Part shown: one piece after another, positions 11,879-19,773 of the stretch
How the letters are laid out: each line of letters begins with the position of its first letter
Numbering within the stretch: the first letter of the stretch is position 1
Virus record (IMG/VR): IMGVR_UViG_3300044213_000019
Location: 1 to 20,235 of that record
Length of the DNA stretch: 20,235 nucleotides
Source: a virus
Reading direction: 5' to 3' (one strand)
Made by a program: the position numbers and the translations under genes
The notes under the pieces: generated by a model
Told to the model about the DNA's origin: nothing
Databases searched by the model: none
What the model saw: the letters and a program-made list of their open reading frames with translations, nothing else

Positions 11879-14364
11879 TGGAATTTTATACTTCAGTAAA
11901 CCCAATGGGCGACAAGATCTTCGTCAGGGGTATTGAAAATGGTAAACGATACCAACGCAAATTAGACTTTAGTCCTACGCTGTATGTGAACTCGAAGAAA
12001 CCCTCCAAGTGGAAAACACTGGAGGGCACATTCGTTGATGAAGTCCAGCCTGGATCTATCAAAGAAACTCGTGACTTCATTAAACGCTACGATGGCGTTC
12101 AGGGGTTTGAAGTTTATGGGAATACAAACTACGCATACCAATACATCAGCGACACCTATGAAGGTGATGTTAATTGGGATATGGAACAGATCAAAGTATT
12201 TACCATTGACATTGAAACCAGCACGGAGAATGGATTCCCAGACATCCGATCAGCGAACGAAGAAGTCCTTCTAATCACTGTCAAAGATCTTCAAACAAAA
12301 CGAATCATTACCTTCGGTAGCAAACCCTACGTGAATCCACGTGAGGATGTTATCTATGTTACCTGTAAGAATGAACATGAACTTCTAACTCAATTCCTTG
12401 AGTTTTGGGTAAAGAGTTATCCTGATGTTATCACTGGTTGGAACACAGACTTCTTTGACGTCCCATACCTTGTCCGTCGTATTGAACGTGAACTTGGTGA
12501 TGGCGAGTCTAACCAAATTAGCCCATGGGGTTACGTAAATGAACGTAAGACCTTCATCAAGGGTAACGAAGAAATCCACTACGATATCGTAGGTATTGCT
12601 CAGCTGGATTATCTTGAACTCTACAAGAAATATACGTATCAGAAACAAGAATCATATCGCCTTGACTATATTGCTGAGCAAGAGTTGGGTGATAAGAAGA
12701 AAGAAAATCCAGGAGAGTCGTTCAAGGATTTCTATACAAACTACTGGCAACATTTTGTTGACTACAACATTCATGACGTAGAGTTGGTTGATAAACTCGA
12801 AGACAAGATGCGTTTGATTGAACTGCATCTAACCATGGCATACAACGCAAAGATTAACTTCGAAGATGTGTATTCACAGGTTCGTATGTGGGATACAATC
12901 ATCTATAATCACCTGCGTAAGAAGGGTATTGTTATTCCTGCCAAGAATCATTCTGGAAAGGATGCCCAGTTTGAGGGTGCTTTTGTTAAAGATCCTATCA
13001 TTGGATTGCATAAATGGATGGCGTCCTTCGACTTGAACTCTCTATATCCTCACTTGATTATGCAGTATAACATTAGCCCAGAGACTCTGACTTCAGAGAA
13101 GCTGAGTGTGACTGTTGATAAGCTACTCAATCAAGAAGTTGACACAAGCTACTTGAAGCAACGTGACCTTGCTCTTACTGCCAACGGATGGACATATACC
13201 AAAGAATTCAAAGGGTTTATGCCAGAGTTGATGGAGAAGATGTATAAAGACCGATCTAAATTCAAGAAGCAGATGCTTGGTGTTCAGCAGCAGTACGAAA
13301 AGGATAAGTCTCAGAAGCATCTACTCAAGGATATCTCTCGTTTGAATAACCTTCAAATGGCCATGAAGATTGCTTTGAACTCTGCCTATGGTGCCATGGG
13401 TAACCAGTACTTCCGTTACTTTGATATTCGTATGGCTGAAGGGATTACTACTTCTGGTCAGTTGTCTATTCGTTGGATGGCAAATAAACTAAATGCCTTC
13501 ATGAACAAAACTCTGAAGACCGAAGGTATAGATTATGTTGTTGCCATTGACACTGACTCAATCTACCTGACACTTGAACATTTAGTTGAGAAAACCTGCG
13601 AAGGTAAAACAACTGAACAGAAAATTAAGTTTATGGACAAGATCTGCGAAGATGTCTTCCAACCATTCATTGACTCTGGTTATCAAGAGTTGGCTGAATA
13701 TATGAATGCCTACTCTCAGAAGATGCAGATGAAGCGAGAAGTTCTTGCCGATAAAGGTATTTGGACTGCCAAGAAACGCTACGTTCTCAATGTGCATAAC
13801 TCTGAGGGTGTTCAGTTTGCCAAGCCGAAGGTAAAGGTGATGGGTCTTGAGATGGTCAAGTCATCTACTCCAGCAATCATTCGTGACAAGCTGAAAGATT
13901 CCATTGACGTTATTCTTCAGGGTGACCAGAAGGTGTTACATAAATACGTAACCGACTTCAGAGAGGTGTTTAATAAACTTCCAGTTGAAGACATTGCGTT
14001 TCCTCGTGGTGTGAATGGTATGAAGCAATATGCTGGTTCTCCAATCTATACAAAAGGTACACCGATTCATGTTCGTGGTGCTTTGTTGTTCAACCACTAT
14101 GTTAAGAAGCAGGGTCTTGATAAGAAATATCAACCTATCCGCGATGGCGACAAGATTAAATTCGTGTATGTTCGCAAACCAAATCCATTCCAAGAGGATG
14201 TGATTGCGTTCAGCCAGAAGTTGCCAGAGGAGTTTAATATTGAAGCATACATAGATTATGATAAACAATTTGAAAAGGTTTTCTTAGACGCACTTCAGAA
14301 TGTTATTGAACCGCTTGGTTGGAAAACACAGGAAGAAAGTTCTTTGGAGGATTTCTTTGGATAA
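11878..14364 (+). CDS. 43: Family B DNA polymerase (T4 gp43 family)
   Basis: An 828-residue replicative polymerase with proofreading, a little shorter than T4 gp43 (898). Exonuclease motifs: Exo I FTIDIET (D111, E113), Exo II around NTDFFDVPY (189-197), Exo III YNIHD (296-300). Polymerase motifs: A SFDLNSLYP (383-391), B K-x3-NSAYG (497-505), C DTDS (558-561) and KKRY (632-635). All catalytic residues are present. The C terminus SSLEDFFG looks like the clamp-binding peptide that docks on gp45. The start overlaps the dexA stop (TAATG). The last codons hold the ribosome site and TTG start of the next gene. No intron or homing endonuclease interrupts it. Confidence 0.98.
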   Translation: MEFYTSVNPMGDKIFVRGIENGKRYQRKLDFSPTLYVNSKKPSKWKTLEGTFVDEVQPGSIKETRDFIKRYDGVQGFEVYGNTNYAYQYISDTYEGDVNWDMEQIKVFTIDIETSTENGFPDIRSANEEVLLITVKDLQTKRIITFGSKPYVNPREDVIYVTCKNEHELLTQFLEFWVKSYPDVITGWNTDFFDVPYLVRRIERELGDGESNQISPWGYVNERKTFIKGNEEIHYDIVGIAQLDYLELYKKYTYQKQESYRLDYIAEQELGDKKKENPGESFKDFYTNYWQHFVDYNIHDVELVDKLEDKMRLIELHLTMAYNAKINFEDVYSQVRMWDTIIYNHLRKKGIVIPAKNHSGKDAQFEGAFVKDPIIGLHKWMASFDLNSLYPHLIMQYNISPETLTSEKLSVTVDKLLNQEVDTSYLKQRDLALTANGWTYTKEFKGFMPELMEKMYKDRSKFKKQMLGVQQQYEKDKSQKHLLKDISRLNNLQMAMKIALNSAYGAMGNQYFRYFDIRMAEGITTSGQLSIRWMANKLNAFMNKTLKTEGIDYVVAIDTDSIYLTLEHLVEKTCEGKTTEQKIKFMDKICEDVFQPFIDSGYQELAEYMNAYSQKMQMKREVLADKGIWTAKKRYVLNVHNSEGVQFAKPKVKVMGLEMVKSSTPAIIRDKLKDSIDVILQGDQKVLHKYVTDFREVFNKLPVEDIAFPRGVNGMKQYAGSPIYTKGTPIHVRGALLFNHYVKKQGLDKKYQPIRDGDKIKFVYVRKPNPFQEDVIAFSQKLPEEFNIEAYIDYDKQFEKVFLDALQNVIEPLGWKTQEESSLEDFFG
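14346..14350 (+). promoter_or_regulatory. Ribosome site that fixes a TTG start
   Basis: GGAGG at 14346-14350, inside the last codons of the polymerase gene, lies 6 nt before TTG at 14357. That TTG begins the dioxygenase frame with MDNIRIIKTG. An in-frame ATG-type start at 14300 would add 19 residues that are merely polymerase codons read in another frame. Confidence 0.8.
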
Positions 14365-14908
14365 TATTAGAATCATCAAAACAGGCATCAACGTATCAAA
14401 GATTTTGCAACAGTTGAAAGAAAATTCTGGAGACTGGGGAGCGCAAAAGAAAATCGAAGGTATCCATAATGTTCATGACGACCATGGGTTTCCTGATGTT
14501 GATGCAGGTGTTTTGCAATTAGTAATCGGTGGGATATCCAAACAAGGAGAATATGTTGGTGACACTGAACTTTGCAAACCAACAGACGCATTTTATAAAC
14601 ATACACACATAGTTTCTTTTTTGAAAAGACACTTTCACACATTTCGTAGATGTGGGTTTCTTTCCTTGCCAATTGGTGGTGAGGTTGGTACTCACATTGA
14701 CGTTGGTAACTACTACCAAACAAAGGACAGGTATCATCTATCAATTCAGGGTAGATACATATACACAGTGGGAGAGGAATCCGTAACTGTTGAACCTGGA
14801 ACCTTGTTGTGGTTCAATAATAAACTACCCCACGGAACAAAGAACATTGGTGATTGTGTTCGTGTTACTTTTGTATTTGATGTTCCTCATCACAAGAGTA
14901 ATCCATAA
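14357..14908 (+). CDS. Aspartyl/asparaginyl beta-hydroxylase-like 2OG-Fe(II) dioxygenase
   Basis: A 183-residue protein with TTG start, overlapping the polymerase end by 8 nt. The double-stranded beta-helix iron site is readable: HID (H113, D115), then KDRYHLSIQG (R125 region), EPGTLLWFNN, the distal histidine H159 in LPHG, and R169 before VTFVFD for 2-oxoglutarate binding. The order H-x-D ... dRyHL ... pG-x-x-w-x-f-N-x-x-x-H ... R-x-x-x-x-F-D is the Asp/Asn beta-hydroxylase pattern (Asp_Arg_Hydrox family). The family hydroxylates protein side chains or small molecules; the phage substrate is unknown. It sits between gp43 and uvsX, where T4 carries gene 42 and beta-gt. Confidence 0.85.
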   Translation: MDNIRIIKTGINVSKILQQLKENSGDWGAQKKIEGIHNVHDDHGFPDVDAGVLQLVIGGISKQGEYVGDTELCKPTDAFYKHTHIVSFLKRHFHTFRRCGFLSLPIGGEVGTHIDVGNYYQTKDRYHLSIQGRYIYTVGEESVTVEPGTLLWFNNKLPHGTKNIGDCVRVTFVFDVPHHKSNP

Positions 14909-14937
14909 TTGCTTTGCAATGAAATTTATAGTATAAT
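14909..14937 (+). promoter_or_regulatory. Likely promoter for the thioredoxin-uvsX unit
   Basis: TATAAT at 14932-14937 has TTGCTT 17 nt upstream (14909-14914), a weaker -35 than the other promoters here. The -10 is centred in a perfect inverted repeat, TAGTAT-AAT-ATACTA at 14929-14943. A small hairpin, ATTGC-TTT-GCAAT at 14908-14920, overlaps the -35. The only gap in this gene run and the strong AGGAG ribosome site at 14945-14949 support a promoter here. Confidence 0.65.
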
Positions 14938-14955
14938 ATACTAAAGGAGAATGAT

Positions 14956-15402
14956 ATGAAAATTTTACGTTTCTACGCCGACTGGTGTGCGCCCTGTACT
15001 CAGTTTAGTCAAATTCTAAAAGAAGTCAAAGAGAAGTACGGTGGTAACTTTCCAATTCAAATTGACTCTGTGAACATCGAGGAAAATATTATGGAAAGTA
15101 TTGCCTTCGATATTAAGAATATCCCAACACTTGTTATGATTGATGACAAACGTAACGAAATCAAACGCAGCGTTGGTGTCATGACTGTTGAGCAAACAAT
15201 GGCATGGATGGATGACACTTCTGCTCCTTCAAAGTCAGAGGTAAAACCTAAAGCAACTGCCAAGAAAACACCAGCTAAGAAAGCTCCAGCGAAAAAGGTT
15301 GCTGAAAAGAAACCAGCTGCTAAGAAGGCTCCTGCTAAAAAGGTTGCTCCAAAAACAAAAGCTCCAGCAAAGAAAGTAACAAAACCAAAGGCTGATAAAT
15401 GA
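14956..15402 (+). CDS. Thioredoxin with histone-H1-like Lys/Ala/Pro-rich tail
   Basis: A 148-residue two-part protein. Residues 1-88 are a thioredoxin fold: FYADWCAPC with active-site C11 and C14, strand and helix order intact, and the cis-proline at P57 in NIPTLVMID. Residues 97-148 are a low-complexity tail of AKK, PAKK and APAKK repeats, strongly basic and resembling the C-terminal tail of histone H1 or bacterial AlgP/HU-type tails. Thioredoxins reduce disulfides, for example in ribonucleotide reductase. The tail would be expected to bind DNA or acidic partners (inference). It is first in a unit with its own promoter at 14909 and an AGGAG ribosome site 6 nt upstream. It overlaps a second, tail-less thioredoxin by ATGA. 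Confidence 0.9.
   Translation: MKILRFYADWCAPCTQFSQILKEVKEKYGGNFPIQIDSVNIEENIMESIAFDIKNIPTLVMIDDKRNEIKRSVGVMTVEQTMAWMDDTSAPSKSEVKPKATAKKTPAKKAPAKKVAEKKPAAKKAPAKKVAPKTKAPAKKVTKPKADK
15244..15399 (+). repeat. Coding repeat region for the Lys/Ala/Pro tail
   Basis: The segment encodes imperfect tandem units of PAKK, AAKK and APAKKV type in the thioredoxin tail. Codon choice varies between units (for example GCTAAGAAG, GCGAAAAAG and GCTAAAAAG), so the protein repeat is better kept than the DNA repeat. That suggests selection on charge and composition rather than very recent slippage. Confidence 0.75.
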
Positions 15403-15647
15403 AAGTATTAAAATTTTATGCTGACTGGTGCGGACCATGTAAGTCTTTGAGCGCTACGTTAGAGAAACATTATACTGGCGAAGTTCCAGTTGAGAGTGTT
15501 AACATTGACACCAACCAAGAAGCTGCTATTACCTACGGTATTCGTGGTGTGCCTACTTGCATCTTGATCGATGAACATGGTACTGAGGTTCGTCGTAAGA
15601 GTGGTGTTATGATGATCGATGAATTTGAGAAATTTGTAAAAGGATAA
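15399..15647 (+). CDS. Thioredoxin (second, minimal copy)
   Basis: An 82-residue thioredoxin: MKVLKFYADWCGPCKSL with the classical WCGPC site (C11, C14) and cis-proline in GVPTCILID (P52). It is short, ending soon after EVRRKSGVMMIDEFEKFVKG, and lacks the first strand and helix of E. coli thioredoxin, as is common for phage versions. It is paralogous to the preceding gene: FYADWC, the S-V-N-I segment, the (I/V)PT block and the SGVMMIDEF/VGVMTVEQT end align. An ATGA overlap couples the two genes, and uvsX follows 2 nt after the stop. It may reduce a nucleotide-metabolism enzyme encoded elsewhere (inference). Confidence 0.93.
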   Translation: MKVLKFYADWCGPCKSLSATLEKHYTGEVPVESVNIDTNQEAAITYGIRGVPTCILIDEHGTEVRRKSGVMMIDEFEKFVKG

Positions 15648-15649
15648 TC

Positions 15650-16723
15650 ATGGGCATTTTAGATAAGCTGAAAAAGAACTCTACCATCAAAGATTCTTCG
15701 CTTCTATCAGAATCGAAATTCTTTAAGAAGAAGGATATGATTCCTACTTCAATTCCAGTTGTTAACGTAGCTCTGTCTGGTCGCCTAGACGGTGGTCTAA
15801 CTCCTGGACTTACAATGTGGGCTGGTCCATCGAAGCACTTCAAGACTGCCTTCAGTTTGTTAATGGCGAAAGCATATTTGGACAAGTACGATGATGGTGT
15901 TGTTTTGTTTTATGATTCTGAGTTTGGTACTCCTCAGTCCTACTTTGATAGTTTCGGTATTGATACTGAGCGAGTTATTCACACACCGATAACTGATATC
16001 GAACAGTTGAAGACTGACCTTTCAAACCAACTCAATGGTATTGAACGTGGCGACCATGTTATCATTGTGATTGACTCGATTGGTAACTTGGCTTCTAAGA
16101 AAGAAGTAGACGATGCCCTTGACGGCAAGTCTGTTGCTGACATGACTCGAGCAAAACAACTCAAGTCAACTTTCCGTATCGTTACACCTCATCTAACAAT
16201 CAAGGATATTCCTATGGTTGTTGTGAACCATACGTATATGGAAATCGGTATGTTCCCTAAAGCCATCGTTGGTGGTGGTACTGGTTCATACTATTCTGCC
16301 GACAACATCTTCATCCTTGGTCGTCAACAAGAGAAGGAAGGTACTGAGATTGTCGGATACAATTTTATTATCAATGTGGAAAAATCTCGTTATGTTAAGG
16401 AAAAGTCTAAGATACCTGTTAGCGTATCTTTTGACGGTGGTATTAGCCGTTGGTCTGGCTTACTCGATATCGCAATCGAATCTGGACATGTCATCAAGCC
16501 TTCTAATGGTTGGTATCAAAAAGTAGACAAAGAAACTGGTGAAGTTGATGAGAAGAAGTATCGTGCAAAAGATACAGATACCAAAGACTTCTGGATGTCA
16601 ATTCTTACAAGTAAATCGTTCAATGATTTTGTGAAGAACAAATACTCAATTGCCCATGGTGAAGCGATCATGCGCGATGATGTTGATGCAGCTTTGGAAG
16701 CGTTGGAATTTGAAGATGAGTGA
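15650..16723 (+). CDS. uvsX: UvsX RecA-like recombinase
   Basis: A 357-residue strand-exchange ATPase that drives recombination-dependent replication and repair in T4-like phages. The Walker A motif is the UvsX-type GPSKHFKT (59-66; T4 has a similar GPSKSFK), Walker B is IVIDSIGN (139-146), and the loop region KEVDDALDGKSVADMTRAKQ and GGGTGSYYSAD blocks are typical. The acidic C terminus (DDVDAALEALEFEDE) is a RecA/UvsX feature. AAGGA before the ATG supports the start. It follows the thioredoxins and overlaps gp40 by 8 nt. The uvsX-40-41 order is the same as in T4. Confidence 0.96.
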   Translation: MGILDKLKKNSTIKDSSLLSESKFFKKKDMIPTSIPVVNVALSGRLDGGLTPGLTMWAGPSKHFKTAFSLLMAKAYLDKYDDGVVLFYDSEFGTPQSYFDSFGIDTERVIHTPITDIEQLKTDLSNQLNGIERGDHVIIVIDSIGNLASKKEVDDALDGKSVADMTRAKQLKSTFRIVTPHLTIKDIPMVVVNHTYMEIGMFPKAIVGGGTGSYYSADNIFILGRQQEKEGTEIVGYNFIINVEKSRYVKEKSKIPVSVSFDGGISRWSGLLDIAIESGHVIKPSNGWYQKVDKETGEVDEKKYRAKDTDTKDFWMSILTSKSFNDFVKNKYSIAHGEAIMRDDVDAALEALEFEDE

Positions 16724-18408: not shown

Positions 18409-19773
18409 ATGGTAAAAGTAATTGTAGCTGAAAAGAAAATTGATTGCTCACATCTGTTGGGTAAGTTTGTTGATGAATCACATTACGACATTTTGGTAGA
18501 GGAAGATGCTGACGTTTATATGCCAGCAACCTGCGATATCGCAACTCAAGCTACTTGCGAGTTGAATAAAGATTGCGCTTCATGCTCGAAGGGTACTGAT
18601 GAATTGCGCATCGCTTTCAAATTCCGCAAGAACTACTTCACCAAAGAAGAGCAGGATGCTGCATATCTTGGACTAAGAGAAGCTGCTGGTAGAACTGAGA
18701 ACCGTGGACTCGCCTCTGGTATTAAAGACGGTGTTCTTGCTACTTCTGAAGGTCGTGAGTGGGTTACCAACTATCAAGACGAGATGATGCAAATGATTCT
18801 TAAGAATCGTACTGAGTCATTGATTGATGAAGACGTTATCGACATTATTCGTGCCAAATATCCACGTGAAGTTGATAAGAAGATGGCTGGTGGTGACGGT
18901 AAAAACAACGTCTGGGTTATCTCTCGTTTCCGTGGTAAGTTTGACTTTGAACAGTGGCTTGATTCTATCAAACCTTTGACTCGCGAAGAACGAGCAAAGG
19001 CAACGGAAGAAGTCATGAAGATGGTTAGCACAACTACTTACGGTAACGCAGTTAACTCTGGTATTGCTGGTTGGTTTGACCGCTACCCACGTATCCCTTA
19101 TGGTCGTGCGACTTCTTATACTCGCGACAACTTTGACAAATTTAAGATGGCATACCCATTCCTTCAAACACTTGCCAAAGGTTTCAAGGATCTGTTGCCA
19201 TGGCGTTATAACAATCAGATGGAAGCTGCCAAGAAAGTTGACCCACGTTACTTGGTTCCAGAAACTCCATTCACAACTATCACTGTGAATAAAACTTTCC
19301 GTACAGCTGCCCACTTTGACGCTGGTGATTTACATACTGGTTTGTCTAACCTTTTGGTTCTGTCTAACAATGGTAACTACAAAGGCGGATACCTAGTTGC
19401 GCCTGAGTATCGTGTTGCTGTCAACGTTCGTCCTGGCGACTTGCTGTTGATTAACAACCACGAAGTATTGCACGGCAACACTCCAATTGAATTGTTGGAC
19501 GAGGAAGCTGAGCGTGTTTCGTTGGTTTGCTACTTCCGTGAGAAGATGTTGGAACTTGGTTCTTATGAATATGAAGAATGCCGTTACAACTTTGTTGAGA
19601 AACGCAGACTGAATAAAGAACACCCATTGTGGAAACATTTATGGAATGGTGTTTCTGAAGGTATGTGGGAAACAAAAGAGTGGTATGACTATCTTGAAGA
19701 ACAACTTGGTCGCGACGTTCTTGTTAAATACCACCCAAAGGCAAACGCAGGTTCTCTTGAGGGATTCTTTTAA
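18409..19773 (+). CDS. Probable TET/JBP-type 2OG-Fe(II) dioxygenase (DNA base oxidation)
   Basis: A 454-residue protein with an AGGAG ribosome site 6 nt before the ATG. Residues 285-380 form a dioxygenase core: R298, HFD (H302, D304), GLSNLLVL, GGYLVAPEY, a PGDLLLIN turn, distal histidine H355 in VLHGNTPI, and R369 in ERVSLVCYFRE for 2-oxoglutarate. The H-x-D, GLSNL, GG-x-L-x-PEY, GD-LL, HGN, R-x-S-L-V-C-Y order is that of the TET/JBP family, which hydroxylates 5-methylcytosine or thymine in DNA; I am inferring family from motifs. Residues 13-59 carry five Cys (C13, C42, C50, C56, C59) that could bind zinc. It follows the helicase where replicated DNA is produced. The base substrate is unknown. 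Confidence 0.68.
   Translation: MVKVIVAEKKIDCSHLLGKFVDESHYDILVEEDADVYMPATCDIATQATCELNKDCASCSKGTDELRIAFKFRKNYFTKEEQDAAYLGLREAAGRTENRGLASGIKDGVLATSEGREWVTNYQDEMMQMILKNRTESLIDEDVIDIIRAKYPREVDKKMAGGDGKNNVWVISRFRGKFDFEQWLDSIKPLTREERAKATEEVMKMVSTTTYGNAVNSGIAGWFDRYPRIPYGRATSYTRDNFDKFKMAYPFLQTLAKGFKDLLPWRYNNQMEAAKKVDPRYLVPETPFTTITVNKTFRTAAHFDAGDLHTGLSNLLVLSNNGNYKGGYLVAPEYRVAVNVRPGDLLLINNHEVLHGNTPIELLDEEAERVSLVCYFREKMLELGSYEYEECRYNFVEKRRLNKEHPLWKHLWNGVSEGMWETKEWYDYLEEQLGRDVLVKYHPKANAGSLEGFF

Follow-up and report, generated by a model that had tools for sequence, protein, structure and literature searches.

A mini-thioredoxin with a conserved basic C-terminal tail in a small clade of T4-like phages

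Small redoxins such as the T4 thioredoxin NrdC and the Escherichia coli NrdH-redoxin reduce class I ribonucleotide reductases (RNR) with which they are co-encoded, and what redoxins reduce in these enzymes is the C-terminal cysteine pair of the RNR large subunit. To our knowledge, neither NrdC nor NrdH carries a basic tail. A thioredoxin is also found at a phage replication fork, namely that of E. coli at the T7 replisome, where its action as processivity factor depends on a thioredoxin-binding domain of the T7-type polymerase. The thioredoxin described here, trx1, was set beside NrdC and NrdH by description and is like them in size and proposed role; NrdH is discussed in PMC3653736. Moreover, 1t7p is among the fold matches of trx1, but a function as T7-like processivity factor was rejected, since the polymerase of this phage, gp43, belongs to family B, is of T4 type and comes with its own gp45 clamp and gp44/gp62 loader.

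The phage mini-thioredoxins of phrog_22/PF00085 (82–86 aa), encoded by T4-like aquatic phages either 5' of uvsX or between nrdA and nrdB, share with trx1 a minimal fold devoid of β1 and α1, the WCxPC motif, the cis-proline and the place between a 2OG-oxygenase gene and uvsX. These proteins end at the last helix, whereas trx1 adds a tail rich in lysine, alanine and proline (K/A/P; 42–54 residues among the tailed forms) and shares only 33–44% identity with the thioredoxins resident in sister phages. As in trx1, KKAPAKK-type C-terminal repeats follow a folded domain in mycobacterial Hlp/HupB and HBHA and bind a polyanion; unlike trx1, these proteins contain no redoxin fusion, and the ligand shown for the tail peptide is heparan sulphate (PMC2409343).

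The window, i.e., the whole analysed stretch of 20,235 nucleotides (IMG/VR record IMGVR_UViG_3300044213_000019), is a 20-kb virus record carrying the replication cluster of a T4-like phage. Genes for a sliding clamp, clamp loader, RegA, Hsp20, DNA ligase, the gp43 polymerase and a 2OG-oxygenase-like protein are followed by two thioredoxin genes, uvsX, the gp41 helicase gene and a Tet_JBP dioxygenase gene. Among named phages, marine T4-like viruses and cyanophages have the closest polymerases (approximately 55% identity). The features of the thioredoxin locus are as follows:

14300..14908, + strand: 2OG-oxygenase-like protein, upstream neighbour of trx1 (phrog_32420; conserved neighbour)
14933..14949, + strand: AT-rich palindrome with -10-like element and Shine-Dalgarno-like AAAGGAG, 5' of trx1 (aligned upstream sequences, consensus scan)
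14956..15237, + strand: mini-thioredoxin domain of trx1, residues 1–94, with WCAPC at 10–14 and cis-Pro at 57 (PF00085, 47.3 bits; AlphaFold2)
15238..15399, + strand: K/A/P-rich C-terminal tail of trx1, residues 95–148, net charge +18 (sequence, composition, predicted structure)
15399..15647, + strand: trx2, tail-less 82-aa mini-thioredoxin of another lineage (PF00085, 58.5 bits; trees, AU test)
15650..16723, + strand: UvsX recombinase, downstream neighbour of the thioredoxin pair (conserved neighbour)

Further observations were made in the window. The Tet_JBP-type 2OG dioxygenase gene (18409–19773) lies directly after the gp41 gene, has counterparts in several relatives (48–96% identity) and possibly functions in DNA-base modification. 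At 13–910, two neighbouring, similar small ORFs encode lipoprotein-like products with lipobox-like LAGC/LAAC motifs; no Pfam match was obtained for them, and none was found in the related phage G001. Upstream of trx1, a 47-nt gap (region 14930–14955 of the window) was observed in all four phages encoding the tailed form. There, the palindrome TAGTATA-A-TATACTA overlaps the -10-like element and precedes AAAGGAG, with a single change in locus L003; both labels derive from a consensus scan and are no evidence of function. The nearest tail-less sisters (L145, L040, L203) feature a gap of only 8–9 nt at the same place, and a related GTATAAT element occurs in L070, L173 and L052.

The reading frame of trx1 runs from ATG to TGA at 14956–15402, exactly as originally predicted, and encodes 148 amino acids. 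Residues 3–86 belong to the thioredoxin family PF00085 (47.3 bits, cut-off 23.5), featuring the active site W10-C11-A-P-C14 and the cis-proline loop I56-P57-T58. Since the match begins at profile position 22 of 103, approximately at residue 24 of E. coli thioredoxin, and the first strand and helix are missing, as in relatives of approximately 83 aa, trx1 is a minimal thioredoxin and not a full one. The earlier description as a complete thioredoxin domain with CAPC motif and cis-proline thus holds for the motifs and the family, but not for completeness, the canonical N-terminal β1-α1 unit being absent. The same reduced fold was found in the 82–86-aa thioredoxins at the same place in relatives. 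For the core, AlphaFold2 predicted the order β-α-β-α-β-β-α (strands 2–7, 35–40, 58–62 and 68–73; helices 12–27, 45–50 and 78–86) with high confidence (block means 91–95 for residues 1–80). The nearest solved folds are true thioredoxins, headed by the thioredoxin chain of the Bacillus subtilis RNR complex (9bxs). Furthermore, W10, C11, C14, P57 and G74 are invariant across 48 relatives, and the active-site surface of trx1 is kept. Since redox site and cis-proline loop are retained, the tailed protein should be, as judged from its sequence, a still active dithiol reductant.

Of 13 related phage records, 12 encode both the large and the small subunit of class I RNR, among them the closest long genome, G001. 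Ten of the 13 have a PF00085 thioredoxin, which is missing from the single record devoid of RNR. The thioredoxin gene of G007 and that of G015/L006 are located between nrdA and nrdB, and the RNR large subunit of G001 ends in ...CLACEG and hence has the C-terminal cysteine pair. Based on the co-encoded RNR, this gene position and the CLACEG end, electron donation to the phage RNR appears to be the best reading of the role of the family, and trx1 would accordingly be placed, by family and neighbourhood, among the mini-thioredoxins that supply the phage's own class I RNR. This assignment is weakened by the position of the tailed gene itself, which lies elsewhere than at an nrd locus; the window, a fragment of 20 kb, contains no such locus. 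Moreover, the partnership is not obligatory, since the RNR-encoding relatives G006 and G011 matched neither PF00085 nor PF00462 in the Pfam search; these phages may rely on host redoxins. No glutaredoxin was found in RNR-encoding phages without thioredoxin, the sole match to a glutaredoxin model overlapping a thioredoxin gene. Between nrdA and nrdB of G001 (L134), a tryptophan-halogenase family gene (L134:10568-12082; PF04820, 167 bits) and a DUF6445 gene were also observed.

The original prediction had named absence of the architecture from all relatives as a reason to regard the tail as incidental. A search of phage genomes for a thioredoxin with K/A/P tail recovered it from four IMG/VR records, namely the window, L003 (part of the 165-kb genome G001), L004 and L139; this number is a lower bound, as the scans used short patterns. 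In all four, the tailed form is encoded between the 2OG-oxygenase gene and uvsX, and the same build at the same place argues against a chance architecture. These records form one T4-like polymerase subclade together with five tail-less relatives. Among 90 loci containing both gp43 and uvsX, four encode a tailed thioredoxin between the two genes, 43 a tail-less one and 43 none. Within G001, no second protein with a tail of this kind was found, even under a looser filter. Among named and annotated phages, 25 gave a thioredoxin match, none of them over 80% of the query and none covering the tail. A bacterial origin was rejected because a pattern-based scan of bacterial contigs yielded only ordinary tail-less thioredoxins among the matches listed, and the literature collection searched contained no relevant report of a thioredoxin with an H1-like or lysine-rich tail. 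As judged from these comparisons, the tailed thioredoxin is a real and conserved architecture of a small clade.

Directly downstream, the second thioredoxin noted earlier was verified as real and tail-less (trx2, 15399–15647). Its start overlaps the trx1 stop by four bases (ATGA), and a TAA directly before the ATG in the trx2 frame makes this an ordinary overlap and rules out a frameshift fusion of the two genes. The two thioredoxins are 41% identical. Phylogenetically, trx2 of the window and of L003 groups with L005, L173, L181 and L192 (support 100/96), and the four tailed domains form a clade of their own (100/100) on a long branch of 1.2–1.6 changes per column near the 83-aa residents. A topology uniting the tailed forms with trx2 of the window and L003 alone was rejected in the AU test (p-AU 0.025), which disfavours a tandem duplication; trx1 and trx2 probably come from different lineages. 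Uniting the tailed forms with the whole trx2 lineage was not rejected (p = 0.43), so that the test does not fix the deeper placement of the tailed clade. In L004 and L139, both of which are fragments, the locus contains no thioredoxin besides the tailed form, and the second thioredoxin, of different lineage, was added in the window and in L003. A division of the pair into a tethered and a soluble form, as had been suggested, is therefore no general design, and the apparently separate lineages (p = 0.025) likewise speak against it.

At approximately 90% gp43 identity, resident thioredoxins of sister phages are 59–88% identical to one another, whereas trx1 is only 33–44% identical to them. On this comparison, the locus looks like a site of thioredoxin allele swapping, or the tailed form evolved very fast: within a small T4-like subclade, a divergent tailed version has taken the place of the thioredoxin normally found just upstream of uvsX, or has arisen from it by rapid change. 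Another possible meaning of the long branch is that trx1 no longer serves RNR, above all in phages that also encode trx2. Consequences of this kind are drawn furthest in an explanation in which trx1 serves a new substrate, e.g., the neighbouring oxygenases or UvsX, on which the tail docks electrostatically, and RNR is left to trx2 or a host thioredoxin. The low identity to the residents and the gain of a second thioredoxin in the window and L003 would fit; however, the retained active-site surface and the occurrence of the tailed form as the only one at the locus in L004 and L139, albeit in fragment records, make this explanation very improbable.

The predicted AKK/PAKK tail of about 50 residues was confirmed as a stretch of 54 residues (95–148) comprising 21 lysines, 14 alanines and 8 prolines (net charge +18). 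No secondary structure was predicted for it, pLDDT block means being 48–67 from residue 91 onwards (AlphaFold2). In composition it resembles the histone H1-like family HC2, of which it is not a member, residues 91–146 scoring 23.5 bits against PF07382 with a curated cut-off of 40. Among the four tailed phages, tail length varies from 42 to 54 aa and repeat number shifts, whereas net charge stays at +16 to +18; in a three-sequence alignment (A1), no change affects the lysine pairs of the repeat core, whereas the letters between them vary. Pairwise dN/dS of the tail is 0.10–0.39, a rough estimate from a short, gappy repeat alignment and a small sample; pairs further apart give 0.10–0.20, and the 0.39 of the closest pair, L004/L139, derives from seven changes only. 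Across the four phages the tail thus looks maintained, as had been suggested. The codon variation between repeat units that had been put forward in its favour applies to the window, where Tandem Repeats Finder gave unit matches of only 63–85%, but not to L003, whose tail contains 4.3 exact copies of a 15-mer. In view of these perfect 15-base units, tail length likely changes by repeat slippage, with the observed charge held nearly constant; the sequence would thus turn over beneath a preserved charge.

A tail that is nothing but a low-complexity slippage extension, tolerated or helping solubility and stability without a specific partner, would account for the exact array in L003, the variable length, the few changes behind the dN/dS of 0.39 and the presence of like tails on unrelated phage proteins. 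It would account less well for charge and lysine pairs being kept without stop codons across gp43 divergences of 8–17% or less while the intervening letters change. The held charge, the invariant pairs and the low dN/dS suggest that pure drift is not at work, and this explanation is rated as rather unlikely.

Regarding the meaning of such tails, a DNA-level scan for AKKAPAKK returned at least 120 stretches, 78 of the 120 listed being located near the C-termini of small, diverse proteins. Ten longer proteins were searched against Pfam, and three of them had domains, namely those of a terminase small subunit (in L221), a Clp protease and an amidase. On viral contigs L218–L337, phage proteins of many kinds bear such tails, among them a small membrane-like family that recurs (e.g., L220, L286, L311). 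We know of no general explanation for these repeat tails on phage proteins. In phages with a conventional thioredoxin of approximately 100 aa, a separate small protein encoded about 2 kb away ends in long KKAPAKKAPAKK arrays (L007:8478-8717, L012:7842-8099, L015:8507-8734, L018:8529-8744, L026:8127-8336, L028:6459-6683, L030:4313-4558); these loci were possibly picked by the AKKAPAKK pattern itself, and the linkage was not counted as evidence.

Since many unrelated phage proteins carry AKKAPAKK motifs C-terminally, a K/A/P tail does not specifically mean DNA binding, and in mycobacterial Hlp and HBHA the ligand of similar tails is heparan sulphate (PMC2409343). The specific role in DNA binding or near the replisome given in the original prediction was accordingly not upheld. 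As an explanation, a DNA or nucleoid tether that holds the thioredoxin at the replication fork and couples dNTP synthesis or the redox control of replication proteins to DNA is consistent with the gene position among gp43, uvsX and gp41, with the H1-like composition at constant charge and with the uniqueness of the tail within G001. It is opposed by the identical motif on terminase, Clp-like protease and amidase, by the other polyanions bound by tails of this type, and by the adjacency to uvsX, which is common to many tail-less forms and hence no consequence of the tail; we regard such a tether as unlikely. Its fuller version, with an H1-like tail tying the redoxin to phage or host nucleic acid and electrons for dNTP synthesis or redox control of replication proteins coupled to the fork, appears decidedly improbable.

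The simplest reading of a conserved, disordered tail of about +17 is that of a polyanion anchor. Most likely it would act non-specifically and enrich the redoxin locally, either on nucleic acid or on an acidic protein partner, DNA representing only one of the candidate ligands. Combining the parts, an RNR-type mini-thioredoxin whose resident predecessor was replaced or rapidly changed, and which carries a disordered basic tail as polyanion anchor, is tentatively proposed, with a probability that we place a little short of even.

Among phage proteins, K/A/P repeat tails are so common that, alone, they should not be taken as a sign of DNA binding. If the tail of trx1 does localise the enzyme, it would provide a simple case of a phage reductant for dNTP synthesis placed near DNA, with the tail-less sister proteins at the same locus as a natural control, and would speak to a long-standing question, namely whether dNTP synthesis of the T4 type and the replisome are physically coupled.
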